A stretch of DNA of 64,000 bases, taken from the NCBI GenBank assembly GCA_002840505.1, contig PHBC01000005.1, forward strand, positions 62,001-126,000, written 5' to 3'. Every line of letters starts with the position of its first letter. The first letter of the stretch is position 1. A program made the translations under genes and the position numbers. Source of the DNA: Deltaproteobacteria bacterium HGW-Deltaproteobacteria-2 (GTDB lineage Bacteria; Desulfobacterota; Syntrophia; Syntrophales; Smithellaceae). The notes under the pieces are model-generated. The model was given only the letters and a program-made list of their open reading frames with translations, was not told the DNA's origin and ran no database searches. Of this stretch, positions 5,901 through 11,946 are shown one piece after another.

Positions 5901-6635
5901 TCAAAACCGGTAGTTGAGTTCCAGCATATGAAGATCTGCCCCCGTATGCTGATGTCCGTAAATTGCGGCATCGGAATAGTGCAGATACCGATAGCCCACT
6001 CCCAGCCGTTTGAAGAGCGGTATGCTAACGCCCGCGGTCAGTGCAAATTGGAAGTATCCGCCGAAGTCTTGCGTTCCAAAGGTATGCCTGCTAAGAAGAG
6101 CCCCACCAGCTCCCATATCTAATGTAAATCTCCCATCTTGACTGCCAAAGGTAACCAAGGGAATGAGAGAAACGACCAACGCGGTTGCCCCGGCGCCATA
6201 AAGAGCACCGACACTGGTCATCAGCCTTATTTCGGATCCCCATCCTGATTTGGAATACCACGATGCCCAAGGCAGCCTGAAGTTCGCCGCCACGTCGAAT
6301 TCTCCAAACTCTTCCGGCGCCACATCCCCGAGCACGTCAGTGTTTGAGAAGTTCACCCGTATACTGACGCTTAGCAACCTCAGTTTGATAGGAGCCTGCT
6401 TATCGTGTTCACATAAATCAAAACTCCTTCCTAGTATTGCCACTTTTTTTGTAGTGTAAGATGTTGTTGGAGTGTCGTAGCCGACAGCGGCGATGGACCG
6501 TTCATAAAGGCTTGCAGCTTGGGTATCGGCGGTCCAGACAAGAAACAACGCGACTACATATAAACTGATGTAGGAGGACTTAGCTATTTTAACCATAGGT
6601 GATTTTATATCATTTTTCAGAGGGAATAACACCAT
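5901..6635 (-). CDS. PagL-like outer-membrane protein (lipid A 3-O-deacylase family)
   Basis: About 244 residues with a signal peptide (cleavage after TADTQAA) and a beta-barrel pattern ending in LELNYRF, the aromatic C-terminus of outer-membrane proteins. The segment GYRYLHYSDAAIYG matches the PagL acyloxyacyl hydrolase site (H-x-S of the Ser-His-Glu triad, usually HYSN). The expected glutamate about 12 residues after the Ser is not clear; an Asp (GADLH) is the nearest acidic residue, so activity is uncertain. Neither ATG (6635 or internal 6593) has a clear ribosome binding site; the internal one gives a more typical signal peptide. Monocistronic. Confidence 0.6.
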   Translation of the reverse strand: MVLFPLKNDIKSPMVKIAKSSYISLYVVALFLVWTADTQAASLYERSIAAVGYDTPTTSYTTKKVAILGRSFDLCEHDKQAPIKLRLLSVSIRVNFSNTDVLGDVAPEEFGEFDVAANFRLPWASWYSKSGWGSEIRLMTSVGALYGAGATALVVSLIPLVTFGSQDGRFTLDMGAGGALLSRHTFGTQDFGGYFQFALTAGVSIPLFKRLGVGYRYLHYSDAAIYGHQHTGADLHMLELNYRF

Positions 6636-6993: not shown

Positions 6994-8355
6994 TCAGTTC
7001 TTCAGAGCGTATTTCTTGAGTTTGTACCGCAACATGCGTTCCGATATTCCTAAAATTTCGGCGGCTTTTGTCTGGTTATCTTGTGTCTTTTCCATTGCCT
7101 CGATAATTAATTTCTTTTCTAAATCATCGACCGAATCGCGTAAAGCACCAGAGACTTTCTTTTCGGAATCATCAGCGGGTAGTATCGATTTGAATGGTAA
7201 ATCCTCTGTCGTAATGTATTGATTGCGCGCAATTACTACTGCCCTTTCAATAATATTAACCAGTTCGCGAACATTTCCCGGATAATCGTATTTTAAAAGA
7301 ACGTCACGTGCCTGGGCTGTCAGTCCCTGAATATTTTTCCCGTTCTCGGCGGCAAATTTATCAATAAAATGATTGATCAAAAGGCTTAAATCTTCTTTTC
7401 TTTCTTTCAATGGCGGCAGGGACATGGTCACAACTTTCAGACGGTAAAAAAGATCTTCGCGAAAAGTTCCTTCTTTAACTTGTGTTTCCAAATCGCGATT
7501 GGTTGCGCTGATAATTCTGACATCGACCTGTAGATTAACATTACTGCCCAGACGTTGGAATTCCCGCTCCTGCAAAAAACGCAAAAGTTTAACCTGTATG
7601 GTCGGACTTAGCTCTCCTATTTCGTCAAGAAAAAGCGTACCGCCATCGGCTTCTTCGAATCGGCCGATGCGGCGGGAAGACGCGCCGGTAAAAGAGCCTT
7701 TCTCGTGGCCGAACAATTCGCTTTCCAGTAAATTTTCATGCAGGGTCCCGCAATTGACAACAACGATTGATTTGTGCGCCCGGGGGCTCAATTGGTGAAT
7801 CAATCGTGCCAGTAATTCTTTCCCGGTTCCGCTTTCTCCCTGAATTAAAACGGATGCTTTGCTTGCGGCTACACGTCCCGCCAGATTGATCAGCTCAGCC
7901 ATGCGCTGGCTTTTGAAGATAATTTTATCCGCGGTAACGCCGCGTTTGCTTAAATCTTCCTTTAAAAGCTTATTCTCCTGAATCAGCTGTCTTCTTTCCG
8001 CTATCCTGTTGACCAGAATTATTAGTTCATCCAGTTCGACAGGTTTTGTTATATAATCAATTGCGCCTGCTTTTAAGGCTTCAACCGCCGTTTCGATTGT
8101 TCCGTAAGCGGTGATTATAATCACGTCTATTTCCGGATTGATGTGTTTTACTTCTTTGAGAACCTGCAGACCATCCATTCCGGGCATCTTGTAGTCCAGA
8201 AGAATTAAATCAAAGTGACCACTCCGGACTGTTTTAAGCGCTTTTTCTCCTTCTTCCGCTTCCATCACCGTATGACCTTCGGAACGCAGAAAATCGCGCA
8301 GCATTTCTCTTTGGGATTGACCGTCATCGACAACAAGAATACTCAGCTTTTGCAT
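6994..8355 (-). CDS. NtrC-family sigma-54-dependent response regulator
   Basis: A 453-residue protein in three parts. The receiver domain (1-120) has Asp10-Asp11 and phospho-acceptor Asp54 in LLDYKMPGMDG. The AAA+ domain (about 145-380) has Walker A GESGTGKE and the sigma-54 contact loop as GSFTGA, a variant of GAFTGA. A C-terminal Fis-type helix-turn-helix (NQTKAAEILGISERMLRYKL) follows. It should activate sigma-54 promoters when phosphorylated by the kinase encoded immediately upstream (7-bp gap, 8362-10164). A GG-N10-GC promoter at 10436-10451, divergent from the kinase gene, is the nearest candidate target. Confidence 0.92.
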   Translation of the reverse strand: MQKLSILVVDDGQSQREMLRDFLRSEGHTVMEAEEGEKALKTVRSGHFDLILLDYKMPGMDGLQVLKEVKHINPEIDVIIITAYGTIETAVEALKAGAIDYITKPVELDELIILVNRIAERRQLIQENKLLKEDLSKRGVTADKIIFKSQRMAELINLAGRVAASKASVLIQGESGTGKELLARLIHQLSPRAHKSIVVVNCGTLHENLLESELFGHEKGSFTGASSRRIGRFEEADGGTLFLDEIGELSPTIQVKLLRFLQEREFQRLGSNVNLQVDVRIISATNRDLETQVKEGTFREDLFYRLKVVTMSLPPLKERKEDLSLLINHFIDKFAAENGKNIQGLTAQARDVLLKYDYPGNVRELVNIIERAVVIARNQYITTEDLPFKSILPADDSEKKVSGALRDSVDDLEKKLIIEAMEKTQDNQTKAAEILGISERMLRYKLKKYALKN

Positions 8356-8361
8356 GAATTT

Positions 8362-10164
8362 TTAGTCCTTATCTTTTGAGGGTGTTTCATTGAATCTTTC
8401 ACGAGGCAAAATAACTTCAAATATCGTTCCTTTACCTTTTCTGCTGATTACTTGTATATCTCCTCCATGACCGCGGATGATTTCAAAAGCCAAAGGTATA
8501 CCTAATCCTACGCCCTTTTCTTTGGTTGTATATTCAGGACTGAAAATCTTTTCGATTTCTTCCGCTGTCATGCCGCAGCCGGTATCGGAAATTCTGGTGA
8601 TAATATAATTCTTTCCATGCTTATCCACTGTAATGGTAATTTTACCTTCTGCCTCTGTTATCGATTCCATGGCATTTTTGATCAAGTTGAGAAATGCCTG
8701 CTGAAGCTTATTGACGTCCATGGACATCAAAGCCGGATTTTCCCGCCATGTTGTTTCAATGGTAATACCTCGGGTTGATGCTTCCTCACGGATAAGGGTG
8801 ACTATTTTTTGCAGCACTTCCGTGATGGAGAATTTAGAGAAATCCAGCCGTCGGCTTTTGGAAAAGGTCAGGAACTCTTCAATTATGGAGTTGAGACGCT
8901 TGATTTCGTCTTTGATAACGCCGGAAAGATTTTGGAAATCAGCCTCTTTTGGGGGGTCGGAAGGAACAAAATCACGCTTAAGCCTTTGAGCTGCTATGCT
9001 GATGGCGTTTAAAGGGTTGCGAATTTCATGTGCCACTCCGGCTGCCAGTTGTCCTAAAGAAGAAAGCCTTTCCGCTTTTTCCAGCTGCCTTTCCATTTCA
9101 ACAATTCCGGCCAGATGCTGGTTCTGATCATGATAAAGCAGCCACATGGAAAGCAAAGCGATTGCGACGATAAAAAACATGAAGACAAAGATATGTTGAC
9201 GGTTTTCGGCAATACTTTTATCCATAGAACTGCGATCAAGGCCGATTCTCACGATACCGACAATTTTTTTGTCCACAAACAAGGGTGCCACTAAATCTAA
9301 AATTTTATGGTCAGCGTAATTAATTTTCCTGCTGGCAATTTTTATCCTTCCGGCTAAAATTTCTTCAAGCTTGAAATCGTTCTTGCTTAAACCGGGGGCA
9401 AACTGGCCGACGCTACTGAGCAGTTTGTTTTGATCATTGATGATTTGCATGTAGACGATGCCGTGGCCTTCGCCTATTTTGTTCATTCCTTTTTCTCCGG
9501 CGACCTTCAAACTCCAGTAAATTAATCCGGCTTTGTCCAGATTTATTACCACTGTGCCGCTGTTATCCTTACGCCTTAAACCTATAAAACCTATTTTCTG
9601 TTTTTCCCGTATTTTCTCTAATAGTTCCAAAGTAGTTAATTTTTTGCCATTTTTAAAAAGATCGCTTGAATCCAGCATGTTTGTTTGTAAAACATTGCTT
9701 TGATGAACCGCATTTCCCTGAGCGTTTAATAAACCGATGTATAAAAAATTGTTATCAACGGCAAATTTATGCAGGTAATCGTTGTTTGTTTTGCCTTTTT
9801 TCCATTGCTCATCCAGGGCCAAAGCCATTTTTGTTATTGCTTCGATTACCCATTTTTTGGAATAAGAAGCTTCGTCCTGGCTGGCATTCTTTATATTGGA
9901 AGCTTTTTTTTCAGGTGTGGCAATTATACTTTTTAAATTTTCTTCAGTTAAACGCTGCAGCACGCCGATGGTGCTCAGGGCCTGATCTTCCATAAATGCT
10001 ATGAGATTATTTTCACTTCGTTGGATTTCCAAAAATCCTGTAGTCAGAATCAAGGCTACAAAAATAGCGCTGACAATAGCTACAGCTAAAGGCTGGAGAA
10101 AGGGATCATTGTAATTGTGAGCTTTGCGGCGAACAATCAAATCTTTTTTTCTAAAAAAAATCAT
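8362..10164 (-). CDS. membrane sensor histidine kinase partner of the NtrC-type regulator
   Basis: A 600-residue protein. Transmembrane helix 1 is at about 30-52; an extracytoplasmic sensor region of roughly 270 residues follows, ending in a PAS/Cache-like segment (HKILDLVAPLFVDKKIVGIVRIG). Helix 2 is at about 328-348. HisKA has the phospho-accepting His in GVAHEIRNPLNAI (near 378), and the HATPase_c domain shows N-box NLIKNAMESI, G1 DTGCGM and G2 GVGLGIPLAFEII. Ligand unknown; the uncharged sensor gives no clue. Co-transcribed with the response regulator. Confidence 0.9.
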   Translation of the reverse strand: MIFFRKKDLIVRRKAHNYNDPFLQPLAVAIVSAIFVALILTTGFLEIQRSENNLIAFMEDQALSTIGVLQRLTEENLKSIIATPEKKASNIKNASQDEASYSKKWVIEAITKMALALDEQWKKGKTNNDYLHKFAVDNNFLYIGLLNAQGNAVHQSNVLQTNMLDSSDLFKNGKKLTTLELLEKIREKQKIGFIGLRRKDNSGTVVINLDKAGLIYWSLKVAGEKGMNKIGEGHGIVYMQIINDQNKLLSSVGQFAPGLSKNDFKLEEILAGRIKIASRKINYADHKILDLVAPLFVDKKIVGIVRIGLDRSSMDKSIAENRQHIFVFMFFIVAIALLSMWLLYHDQNQHLAGIVEMERQLEKAERLSSLGQLAAGVAHEIRNPLNAISIAAQRLKRDFVPSDPPKEADFQNLSGVIKDEIKRLNSIIEEFLTFSKSRRLDFSKFSITEVLQKIVTLIREEASTRGITIETTWRENPALMSMDVNKLQQAFLNLIKNAMESITEAEGKITITVDKHGKNYIITRISDTGCGMTAEEIEKIFSPEYTTKEKGVGLGIPLAFEIIRGHGGDIQVISRKGKGTIFEVILPRERFNETPSKDKD

Positions 10165-10241
10165 TTTTACCCTGATAATCTTATTTTGTTAGTCACTTTA
10201 AGCTATTTAAGGAAAAAGTCAACGGCTAATCCCCCATGACC

Positions 10242-10255
10242 CGACATTTTTGTCG
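10242..10255. promoter_or_regulatory. palindrome, candidate enhancer site for the NtrC-type regulator
   Basis: CGACA-TTTT-TGTCG is a perfect inverted repeat about 200 bp upstream of the sigma-54-like promoter at 10436 and just upstream of the kinase gene. A degenerate copy (CGACATTTATTGCCG) begins at 10333. Position and symmetry fit an upstream activating site; that the neighbouring regulator binds it is inference. Confidence 0.4.
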
Positions 10256-10435
10256 AAAAAATAGCAAACACTGCGATTTACAATTAAATATTTGAATTTA
10301 TTATGTTATTTAAAATAAGCAGGTATGTTTTCCGACATTTATTGCCGCCAACATAAAATGGTTATTCGGTACTCTTGGCACTGTTTAAAATTATTTACTA
10401 ACAATATTAAATATTTACAATGATCGTATCATTAG

Positions 10436-10451
10436 TGGTACGATAAATGCT
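10436..10451 (+). promoter_or_regulatory. sigma-54 (RpoN) type promoter
   Basis: TGGTACG-ATAA-ATGCT matches the -24/-12 consensus (TGGCACG-N4-TTGCT), with the invariant GG (10437-10438) and GC (10449-10450) exactly 10 bp apart. Transcription would start near 10462, upstream of a compact three-hairpin sequence with an intrinsic terminator and no open reading frame of note. Confidence 0.6.
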
Positions 10452-10461
10452 TTAAATAATG

Positions 10462-10587
10462 GCAAGTTCGTTTTTTGTCGACTATAAATAACGGGTATGA
10501 TTAGCCGACAACAAAACAACCAAGAAGGTATTTAACCTTCTCTCTTCATTCCTCAGGGAGGCCTTAACCAAGCCTCCCTTTCCTTTT
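10462..10587 (+). ncRNA. candidate sigma-54-dependent small RNA (about 125 nt)
   Basis: From the predicted start the transcript folds into three hairpins. Hairpin 1 pairs 10470-10480 with 10506-10517 (11 bp, one bulged C). Hairpin 2 is GAAGGT/ACCTTC at 10524-10540. Hairpin 3 is a GC-rich terminator, AGGGAGGC/GCCTCCCT, at 10555-10579 followed by TTTCCTTTT. The single-stranded pyrimidine stretch between hairpins 2 and 3 (TCTCTTCATTCCTC) is complementary to Shine-Dalgarno plus start-codon sequences of the type GAGGAATGA, a plausible seed for translational repression. It lies divergent from an NtrC-type two-component pair, an arrangement known for RpoN-driven sRNAs in other bacteria. No family match was recognised. 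Confidence 0.55.
10555..10587 (+). terminator. intrinsic terminator of the candidate sRNA
   Basis: An 8-bp stem AGGGAGGC/GCCTCCCT is followed by TTTCCTTTT on the plus strand. There is no T tract in the minus direction, so it belongs to rightward transcription and not to rarA, which ends 10 bp away. Confidence 0.8.
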
Positions 10588-10596
10588 GCGCAAAAC

Positions 10597-11946
10597 TCAG
10601 TCATCTCCAGAATTTATTTTCTTGTTGTGCCAATATTTTAATCTTTCTTTAATGGTTTTCTCAAATCCGGTATCTTTGGGTTGGTAAAATATCTGCCCCT
10701 TAATTTCATCCGGCAGATATTCTTGCTGTACATAACCGTCGGAGTAATCGTGGGCGTATTTATAGTCCTTGCCGTAGTCAAGTTCTTTCATTAATTTGGT
10801 CGGAGCATTGCGAATATGTAAAGGAACGGGCAAATATCCGGTTGTTTTAATTGTTTCTTTAACTTTGCCATAACCAACGTACAATGAATTGCTTTTAGGT
10901 GCCGTGGCCAGGTAAACTGCTGCCTGGGCTAGCGCCAGTTCTCCTTCCGGCAGACCGATAAAATGAAAAGCCTGTTGGGCGGCCATAGCAATAACCAAAG
11001 CCTGTGGATCAGCGTTGCCCACATCTTCCGAAGCGAAGCGAATCATGCGCCGAGCAATGTACAGAGGATCTTCTCCGGCGGCAAGCATTCGTCCCAGCCA
11101 GTAAAGTGCGGCATCAGGGTCACTGCCGCGCAAGCTTTTGTGCAAAGCCGAAATTAAATTATAATGCTCTTCGCCGTCTTTATCGTATAAAAGCGATTTC
11201 TTCAGCAGGGCTTCTTGAGCAAATTTCAAAGAGATAACTCTTTCATCCTCCTGCAAGTTTTGCACCATGGATACAATGGCTTCCAGATTATTCAGGGCAC
11301 TGCGGGCATCGCCGTCGGCCAGACTGACAATATAACGAAGAACATTTGGATCGATTTTTATAGAAATTTGCCCGAATCCTTTTTGTTTATCTTTCAAAGC
11401 ATTTTCTAGAATAGCCAGCAGATCTTCTTCGGAAAATGGTTTTAAAACTAAAACCCTTGTTCGCGACAAAAGAGGAGCAATTACTTCAAAAGAAGGATTT
11501 TCCGTGGTTGCGCCGATTAAGGTAATCAGTCCGCTTTCCACATGCGGTAAAAAAGCGTCCTGCTGTGCTTTGTTGAAACGGTGAATTTCGTCAACAAAGA
11601 GAATCATTTTCATTTTTTTTCTTTCCAGCAGTTCTCTGGCTTCATCAATGACCGCGCGAATTTCTTTTACGCCGGAAAGAACGGCAGAAAAGCTGACAAA
11701 ATTTGATTTGGTTTCACGGGCTAAGATTCTGGCCAGAGTGGTTTTGCCAGAACCCGGTGGCCCCCAGAAAATCATGGAGAAAAGCTTATCTTCATCGATC
11801 GCGCGTTTGAGCAGACAGCCTTCTGATAGAAGATGCCGCTGACCGATGTATTCAGAAATATTTTGCGGCCTCATTCTTTCGGCTAGCGGTGCCAAATCTT
11901 TCACATCGCCTGTTTTACCATCGCTGAATAAATCTAAAGTTTTCAT
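10597..11946 (-). CDS. rarA: replication-associated recombination protein RarA (MgsA)
   Basis: A 449-residue AAA+ ATPase of the RarA/MgsA/WRNIP1 family, related to clamp-loader subunits and acting at stalled forks. Seen: N-terminal LAERMRPQNISEYIGQ, Walker A GPPGSGKTT (about residue 62), Walker B FVDEIHRFNK, sensor 1 GATTENPSF, and the C-terminal tetramerisation part with SLRGSDPDAALYWLGRML and SYVGYGK-like motifs. Full length. The upstream 85-aa gene overlaps it by ATGA, so they are translationally coupled. Confidence 0.93.
   Translation of the reverse strand: MKTLDLFSDGKTGDVKDLAPLAERMRPQNISEYIGQRHLLSEGCLLKRAIDEDKLFSMIFWGPPGSGKTTLARILARETKSNFVSFSAVLSGVKEIRAVIDEARELLERKKMKMILFVDEIHRFNKAQQDAFLPHVESGLITLIGATTENPSFEVIAPLLSRTRVLVLKPFSEEDLLAILENALKDKQKGFGQISIKIDPNVLRYIVSLADGDARSALNNLEAIVSMVQNLQEDERVISLKFAQEALLKKSLLYDKDGEEHYNLISALHKSLRGSDPDAALYWLGRMLAAGEDPLYIARRMIRFASEDVGNADPQALVIAMAAQQAFHFIGLPEGELALAQAAVYLATAPKSNSLYVGYGKVKETIKTTGYLPVPLHIRNAPTKLMKELDYGKDYKYAHDYSDGYVQQEYLPDEIKGQIFYQPKDTGFEKTIKERLKYWHNKKINSGDD

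Follow-up and report, generated by a model that had tools for sequence, protein, structure and literature searches.

Introduction

The Qrr RNAs of Vibrio are stand-alone small RNAs (sRNAs) of about 100 nt that are transcribed from sigma-54 promoters under activation by the NtrC-type regulator LuxO, act by base pairing, and are present as several siblings in some species. RpoN-driven sRNAs tied to an NtrC-type activator of a two-component system are also found in the pairs GlmY/GlrR and CrcZ/CbrB. CpxP is a relative of the ZraP and Spy proteins. CpxQ, an sRNA released from the 3'UTR of cpxP, constitutes a second output of an envelope-stress system (PMC4817254), and the regulator ZraR of E. coli commands a very small regulon around its own locus, comprising zraP, zraSR and mgtA (PMC7657598). 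The alpha-r14 or cuckoo sRNAs (NfeR1, CcsR) expose unpaired anti-Shine-Dalgarno (anti-SD) motifs, with many predicted mRNA targets, and their stems vary while the motif stays (PMC10746234). The Qrr literature consulted is PMC2680268 and PMC4211561.

Here we describe a locus of Syntrophales whose RNA is of the same kind as those of Qrr/LuxO, GlmY/GlrR and CrcZ/CbrB, and which adds to them a position of the zraP type, a near-fixed enhancer pair and structural turnover of the RNA behind one switch. It resembles Qrr/LuxO in its stand-alone sigma-54 sRNA, its NtrC-type activator and the several siblings of some genomes, but differs in sequence and structure (no Rfam match), in having the kinase as direct neighbour, in its anti-SD seed, and in that no Hfq was found in the relatives searched. 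With GlmY/GlrR and CrcZ/CbrB it shares an RpoN-driven sRNA with a two-component activator of the NtrC type; unlike GlmY and CrcZ, the RNA has no Rfam match, lacks the CA-repeat array of CrcZ and is unlinked to rapZ or glmS.

Results

Architecture of the locus

The window, that is, the whole stretch of DNA analysed here, comprises 64,000 nucleotides of Deltaproteobacteria bacterium HGW-Deltaproteobacteria-2, and the features of the locus are collected in Table 1. A sequence-only reading of this DNA had proposed a GG-N10-GC sigma-54 promoter, followed by about 125 nt without a gene that fold into three hairpins and end in a GC-rich terminator with a T tract, beside a sigma-54 activator and its kinase; promoter and fold were borne out as described below, and the identity of the neighbours was confirmed by their domains.

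Table 1. Coordinates of the features of the kinase-regulator-RNA-rarA locus within the window
Feature	Position	Strand	Remarks
NtrC-type response regulator	6994..8355	-	REC, sigma-54 AAA+ and Fis-type HTH domains
Sensor histidine kinase, AtoS/ZraS-like	8362..10164	-	HisKA/HATPase (Pfam, NCBIfam)
Probable sigma-70 promoter of kinase gene (TTGACT-17-TAAAGT)	10195..10223	-	Adjoins UAS1; read from the sequence
UAS1, palindrome CGACATTTTTGTCG	10242..10255	.	Likely binding site of the adjoining response regulator
UAS2, CGACATTTATTGCCG	10333..10347	.	Second likely regulator site
Sigma-54 promoter TGGTACGATAAATGCT	10436..10451	+	-24 GG at 10437-10438, -12 GC at 10449-10450
Predicted small non-coding RNA	10462..10588	+	Fold z -4.95; covariance model match 10475-10587, E 5.4e-23
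Hairpin 1, conserved loop AACGGGYAUGA	10476..10510	+	Stem includes GC/AU double changes in A4
Hairpin 2	10523..10541	+	4/4 modelled pairs with double changes; lost in some clades
Conserved pyrimidine (anti-SD) stretch CCUUCUCUCUUCAUUCCUC	10536..10554	+	Nearly invariant in the window's family
Intrinsic terminator hairpin and T tract	10555..10587	+	Covariation in 5/7 modelled pairs; all cells (100%) paired
rarA/mgsA	10597..11946	-	Synteny marker; convergent with the RNA gene at almost every locus

Judged by its sequence, TGGTACGATAAATGCT is near-consensus for a sigma-54 promoter, and GG-N10-GC was present in 90 of the 91 rows examined across Syntrophales loci, a set that includes some loci fetched twice; exceptions are L113, with GT in place of GC, and the f4 members L172 and L173, with GA. 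The predicted RNA starts about 12 nt past the -12 element and finishes at the T tract of the terminator. Folded from position 10462, it reaches -38 kcal/mol and displays three hairpins and a GC-rich terminator followed by the T tract TTTCCTTTT; its z-score of -4.95 was obtained against 200 dinucleotide shuffles, none of which was equally low.

The only open reading frame of at least 40 aa overlapping the RNA region was a single antisense frame of 40 aa, which is not a plausible gene, and no conserved reading frame was found across the relatives of the RNA. A small mRNA, in which the AUG of the conserved loop would open a micro-ORF (MISRQ...), could draw on the presence of AUGAUURGCCGA in the stem of many sequences, but the AUG is absent in 26 of 89, the frame extends from two codons to open-ended, and the sequence changes track stem pairing, so that we consider a coding role highly improbable. 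The RNA is conserved among relatives and therefore represents more than a chance feature; the non-coding RNA gene is almost certainly real, its transcript being a predicted one, and we infer that it is transcribed.

The kinase contains two transmembrane segments according to hydropathy, and its sensor was modelled as extracytoplasmic (mean pLDDT 78.7), with weak matches to Cache/PAS-type folds. The HTH of the regulator is conserved as far as the outgroup, and the solved relatives named for this protein include ZraR and LuxO. Downstream of the regulator gene, positions 5901-6635 of the window (- strand) encode a PagL-type lipid A 3-O-deacylase (PF09411). Relative to the curated ZraS/ZraR cut-offs, the kinase (205.6 vs 479 bits) and the regulator (466.6 vs 760 bits) both score below; the AtoS and AtoC models score above ZraS and ZraR for kinase and regulator, respectively, and likewise remain below cut-off. 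Because both proteins fall below the curated ZraS/ZraR cut-offs, any assignment to stress is made by analogy only, and we propose envelope or metal stress as the signal tentatively.

Likely enhancer sites and proposed control of the RNA gene

Two sites that went unmentioned in the sequence-only reading, UAS1 and UAS2, sit between the kinase gene and the sigma-54 promoter; together with the sibling copies and the zraP position described below, they extend that reading. Of 89 loci, 79 contain the UAS1 pattern CGACA-N4-TGTCG, usually 188-197 bp ahead of the -24 element (0.06 in shuffles), and 77 contain the UAS2 pattern CGACA-N5-TGCC, usually 100-105 bp ahead of the same element (0.12 in shuffles). 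The AT-centred palindrome CGACAWWWWTGTCG occurs once in the whole genome to which the window belongs, at this site. UAS1 followed after 160-190 bp by TGGC-N8-TGC was detected in 92 of 154 Syntrophales genomes, and a reversed control pattern gave 3 matches. Both sites are likely enhancers at which the neighbouring regulator would bind, and the RNA gene is very probably driven by this regulator together with sigma-54. In L225:3033-3351 (G066) and L224 (G065), both of family f18, tandem UAS1 palindromes lie 111-112 bp apart upstream of the sigma-54 promoter.

The arms of hairpin 1 (TGTCG...CGACA) resemble UAS half sites in the window's genome, as would be expected if the conserved block were merely DNA regulatory sequence plus a terminator and encoded no functional RNA. 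Nevertheless, the corresponding stem in other families reads UUAUCGG/CCGAUAG, with compensatory changes and no likeness to the UAS, and the UAS themselves sit upstream at fixed distances, making such a DNA-only function very improbable in comparison with an RNA gene.

The AAGTCAA of the kinase -35 region is kept in many of the relatives compared. Since the kinase -35 element TTGACT adjoins UAS1, the neighbouring regulator may exert control over its own operon as well.

Distribution and covariation of the RNA

Searching 60 related genomes at the DNA level returned strong matches within the window's family, from which 35 distinct sequences (alignment A1) were used to build covariance model R1. 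This model matched in 86 of 155 Syntrophales genomes, spread over many families, and model R3, built from 57 Syntrophales sequences (alignment A4), matched in 97 of 155. The kinase and regulator genes are divergent from the RNA gene, and rarA is convergent with it, in nearly all loci; the sequence-only reading had called for a covariance search across Syntrophales and for promoter and hairpins kept beside orthologous kinase/regulator pairs, and this is the distribution that was found. Within this analysis, the kinase-regulator-RNA-rarA arrangement was encountered only in Syntrophales.

When R3 was run on 395 genomes drawn from the phylum, no convincing member appeared outside Syntrophales; among the outside matches (best E 7.6e-4), the strongest of those inspected lacked the promoter and an adjoining kinase pair. 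Two weak R1 matches (G009:C24 and G003:C20) proved to be terminator look-alikes devoid of promoter or divergent kinase, and the covariance model located no second copy of the RNA in the window's genome. Neither the window RNA nor the other members tested matched Rfam, whose covariance models place the RNA in none of the Qrr, GlmY/GlmZ and CrcZ sequence families. The RNA is thus previously unlisted, in agreement with the earlier suggestion of a new family, and a search of the open-access literature retrieved no paper describing an sRNA from either Syntrophus or Smithella.

All three stems covary, and the compensatory changes that had been anticipated are abundant. On A4, double changes affect 12 of 18 pairs (132 cells vs 39.8 in shuffles) and the covariation score is 0.426, as opposed to 0.095-0.122 with partners slid, counts that are biased to the extent that A4 was aligned to fit the structure of R1; the MAFFT alignment A1, which is independent, yielded 7 double-change pairs vs 2.7 in shuffled data. 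Model R2 (RNAalifold on the MAFFT alignment) contained too few pairs and was set aside. A loop-linker pseudoknot joining the GGG of the hairpin 1 loop to the CC after that hairpin displayed no consistent covariation by eye. The architecture of hairpins and terminator would also suit a leader or attenuator at the 5' end of a downstream gene, with no stand-alone RNA formed; however, rarA, which follows, is convergent with the RNA gene at nearly every locus, and in the window this orientation already refutes a leader. With the terminator as the helix that covaries most strongly, a leader retains hardly any probability against an independent RNA gene.

Sibling copies and turnover of the RNA behind one switch

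The Syntrophus-type genome G084 carries three modules (at 813649, 1678301 and 1924998), one beside the kinase and two elsewhere, each equipped with UAS and a sigma-54 promoter. Its third module (L215:3002-3400; G084:C1:1678301, + strand) is followed by an RNA-like stretch matched by no model. Orphan RNA copies possess UAS and a promoter of their own, and some f14 members have two or more modules. In L125:3520-4592 (G041), the sRNA gene and its promoter are tandemly duplicated about 1 kb apart.

In genus g2 (L220:1910-2240; L221:289-620), a second, different putative RNA stands behind the same switch and shares UCUCUUCAU with the main RNA. Families f2 and f15 (L302, L303, L304, L305, L306, L308, L309, L310) likewise combine the same switch with a different RNA, whose 5' hairpin loop exposes CUCC(U)CC and which conserves GCUUAAACC 3' of that hairpin. 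In f2/f15, the kinase and regulator genes adjoin the module in G104 and G142, and were not present beside it in the examined stretches of G113, G144 and G036.

Further modules precede protein genes. In L311:1498-1900 (G153) and L312:1540-1950 (G152), a second UAS-like and sigma-54 module lies before a protein starting MVASMKLIDLVENH, a possible further regulon member, and in L300:1527-1900 (G058:C1) a UAS and a sigma-54-like site lie before a protein starting MATVKMKRYKSMLHHRIEE, with a similar layout in several f6 genomes.

The exposed anti-Shine-Dalgarno stretch

The sequence-only reading had pointed to an unpaired pyrimidine stretch complementary to ribosome-binding sites, a prediction that the folds uphold: positions 10542-10554 (UCUUCAUUCCUC) are unpaired between hairpins 2 and 3, and the seed has a mean unpaired probability of 0.73, compared with 0.46 over the entire RNA. 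The seed reads CUCUUC in the window's family, where it is a weaker SD complement, and CUCCUGA or CUCCUCCUGA in other families. Hairpin 2 is missing in L119, L120, L122, L124, L128, L131, L132 and L139; a whole clade and one orphan copy have lost it, and there the pyrimidine stretch is kept. Because the stretch persists where hairpin 2 is lost, it is the stretch rather than the hairpin that appears to be the functional part.

As the most constant accessible element of the RNA is this anti-SD stretch, a block of translation by pairing with ribosome-binding sites is likely; conservation and accessibility together make anti-SD action a reasonably probable mode. The stretch recalls the alpha-r14 or cuckoo sRNAs, in which an exposed anti-SD motif is constant while the stems differ. 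Alpha-r14, however, has three hairpins each exposing CCUCCUCCC, an arrangement found in none of the Syntrophales RNAs by sequence, folds and Rfam comparison; these present a sigma-54 promoter and a single linear stretch, or in f2/f15 a single loop.

When 13 genomes were searched for near-perfect anti-seeds to CUCCUCCUGA beside a start codon, 7 matches were returned, of which one was the antisense strand of the RNA gene itself, and no gene clearly recurred across many of these genomes. Autoregulation through the start sites of the kinase and regulator genes was discarded, the pairing being weak (-4.2 and -6.1 kcal/mol).

An RNA that is real and driven by the regulator might instead serve mainly as a protein decoy or sponge through its hairpin 1 loop (GGGCA-type), in the manner of CrcZ or RsmY, with the pyrimidine stretch secondary. 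The GGG of this loop is invariant in 48 diverse sequences, so that its conservation equals or exceeds that of the pyrimidine stretch, and no Hfq was found in 60 relatives under conditions in which positive controls were detected; both observations favour a sponge. Yet the f2/f15 RNAs have no GGGCA-type loop and still expose an anti-SD behind the same switch, each RNA carries a single copy of the loop where known sponges usually offer several sites, and inspection revealed no conservation of GGA (CsrA) motifs in the loops, on which basis a CsrA sponge was rejected. We therefore consider the decoy function unlikely, and retain pairing with ribosome-binding sites as the preferred mode of action.

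A probable zraP position in a ZraSR-like locus

In other orders of the phylum, the same UAS-promoter pattern precedes genes that encode small secreted PF13801 proteins (Metal_resist, ZraP family), namely in G317 (L278), G255 (L281) and G174 (L314:5458-6200). In G174, a kinase with 33% identity and a regulator with 60% identity lie divergent from the PF13801 gene, both UAS are present, and the recognition helix of the regulator is nearly the same as that of the window regulator. In G424 (L279), also outside Syntrophales, the pattern lies before a gene resembling the ZraP-like ones. At the Syntrophales locus, the divergent gene behind the sigma-54 promoter is the RNA and not zraP. Since loci of the G174 type outside the order place a ZraP-like gene behind the same switch, the RNA can with good confidence be placed in the slot that zraP, the gene of a protective periplasmic protein, holds at ZraSR-like loci.

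The locus resembles the enterobacterial ZraPSR system in having a divergent effector gene with a sigma-54 promoter beside an NtrC-type system, but differs from it in that the effector gene is an RNA and in the sub-cut-off scores of kinase and regulator. It resembles CpxQ as an sRNA tied to a stress-type system whose protein output is ZraP-related; CpxQ, in contrast, is a 3'UTR fragment, and the Syntrophales RNA has a gene to itself, complete with promoter and terminator.

Discussion

Taken as a whole, the feature is probably a stand-alone, trans-acting sRNA gene that is switched by the regulator and sigma-54 and likely acts through its anti-SD stretch. In the mechanism that we propose, the kinase would sense a signal outside the cytoplasm and phosphorylate the NtrC-type regulator, which would bind UAS1 and UAS2 and activate sigma-54 RNA polymerase at the promoter. 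The resulting RNA of about 125 nt, with its 5' hairpin and fixed GGGCA-type loop, unpaired anti-SD stretch and terminator, would repress mRNAs, possibly many, by Hfq-independent pairing with the ribosome-binding sites of these targets. By analogy with ZraSR, it may be the output through which the cell responds to envelope or metal stress.

A more speculative and rather doubtful scenario is that, in the ancestor of Syntrophales, the output of a ZraP-like chaperone was replaced by a mimic of the 16S rRNA anti-Shine-Dalgarno. The switch would have remained near-fixed while the RNA types turned over, sharing only the exposed anti-SD, and the result would be an Hfq-free translational stress brake throughout the order.

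These findings describe a small-RNA regulator together with its complete switch for a whole order of syntrophs that drive methanogenic degradation. They also present a two-component system of the stress type in which, depending on the lineage, the divergent effector slot is filled by a protein gene or by an RNA gene, and render testable the question of whether an RNA can stand in for a periplasmic accessory protein. As Syntrophales are apparently without Hfq, the mode of action of this RNA would be informative on Hfq-free riboregulation.
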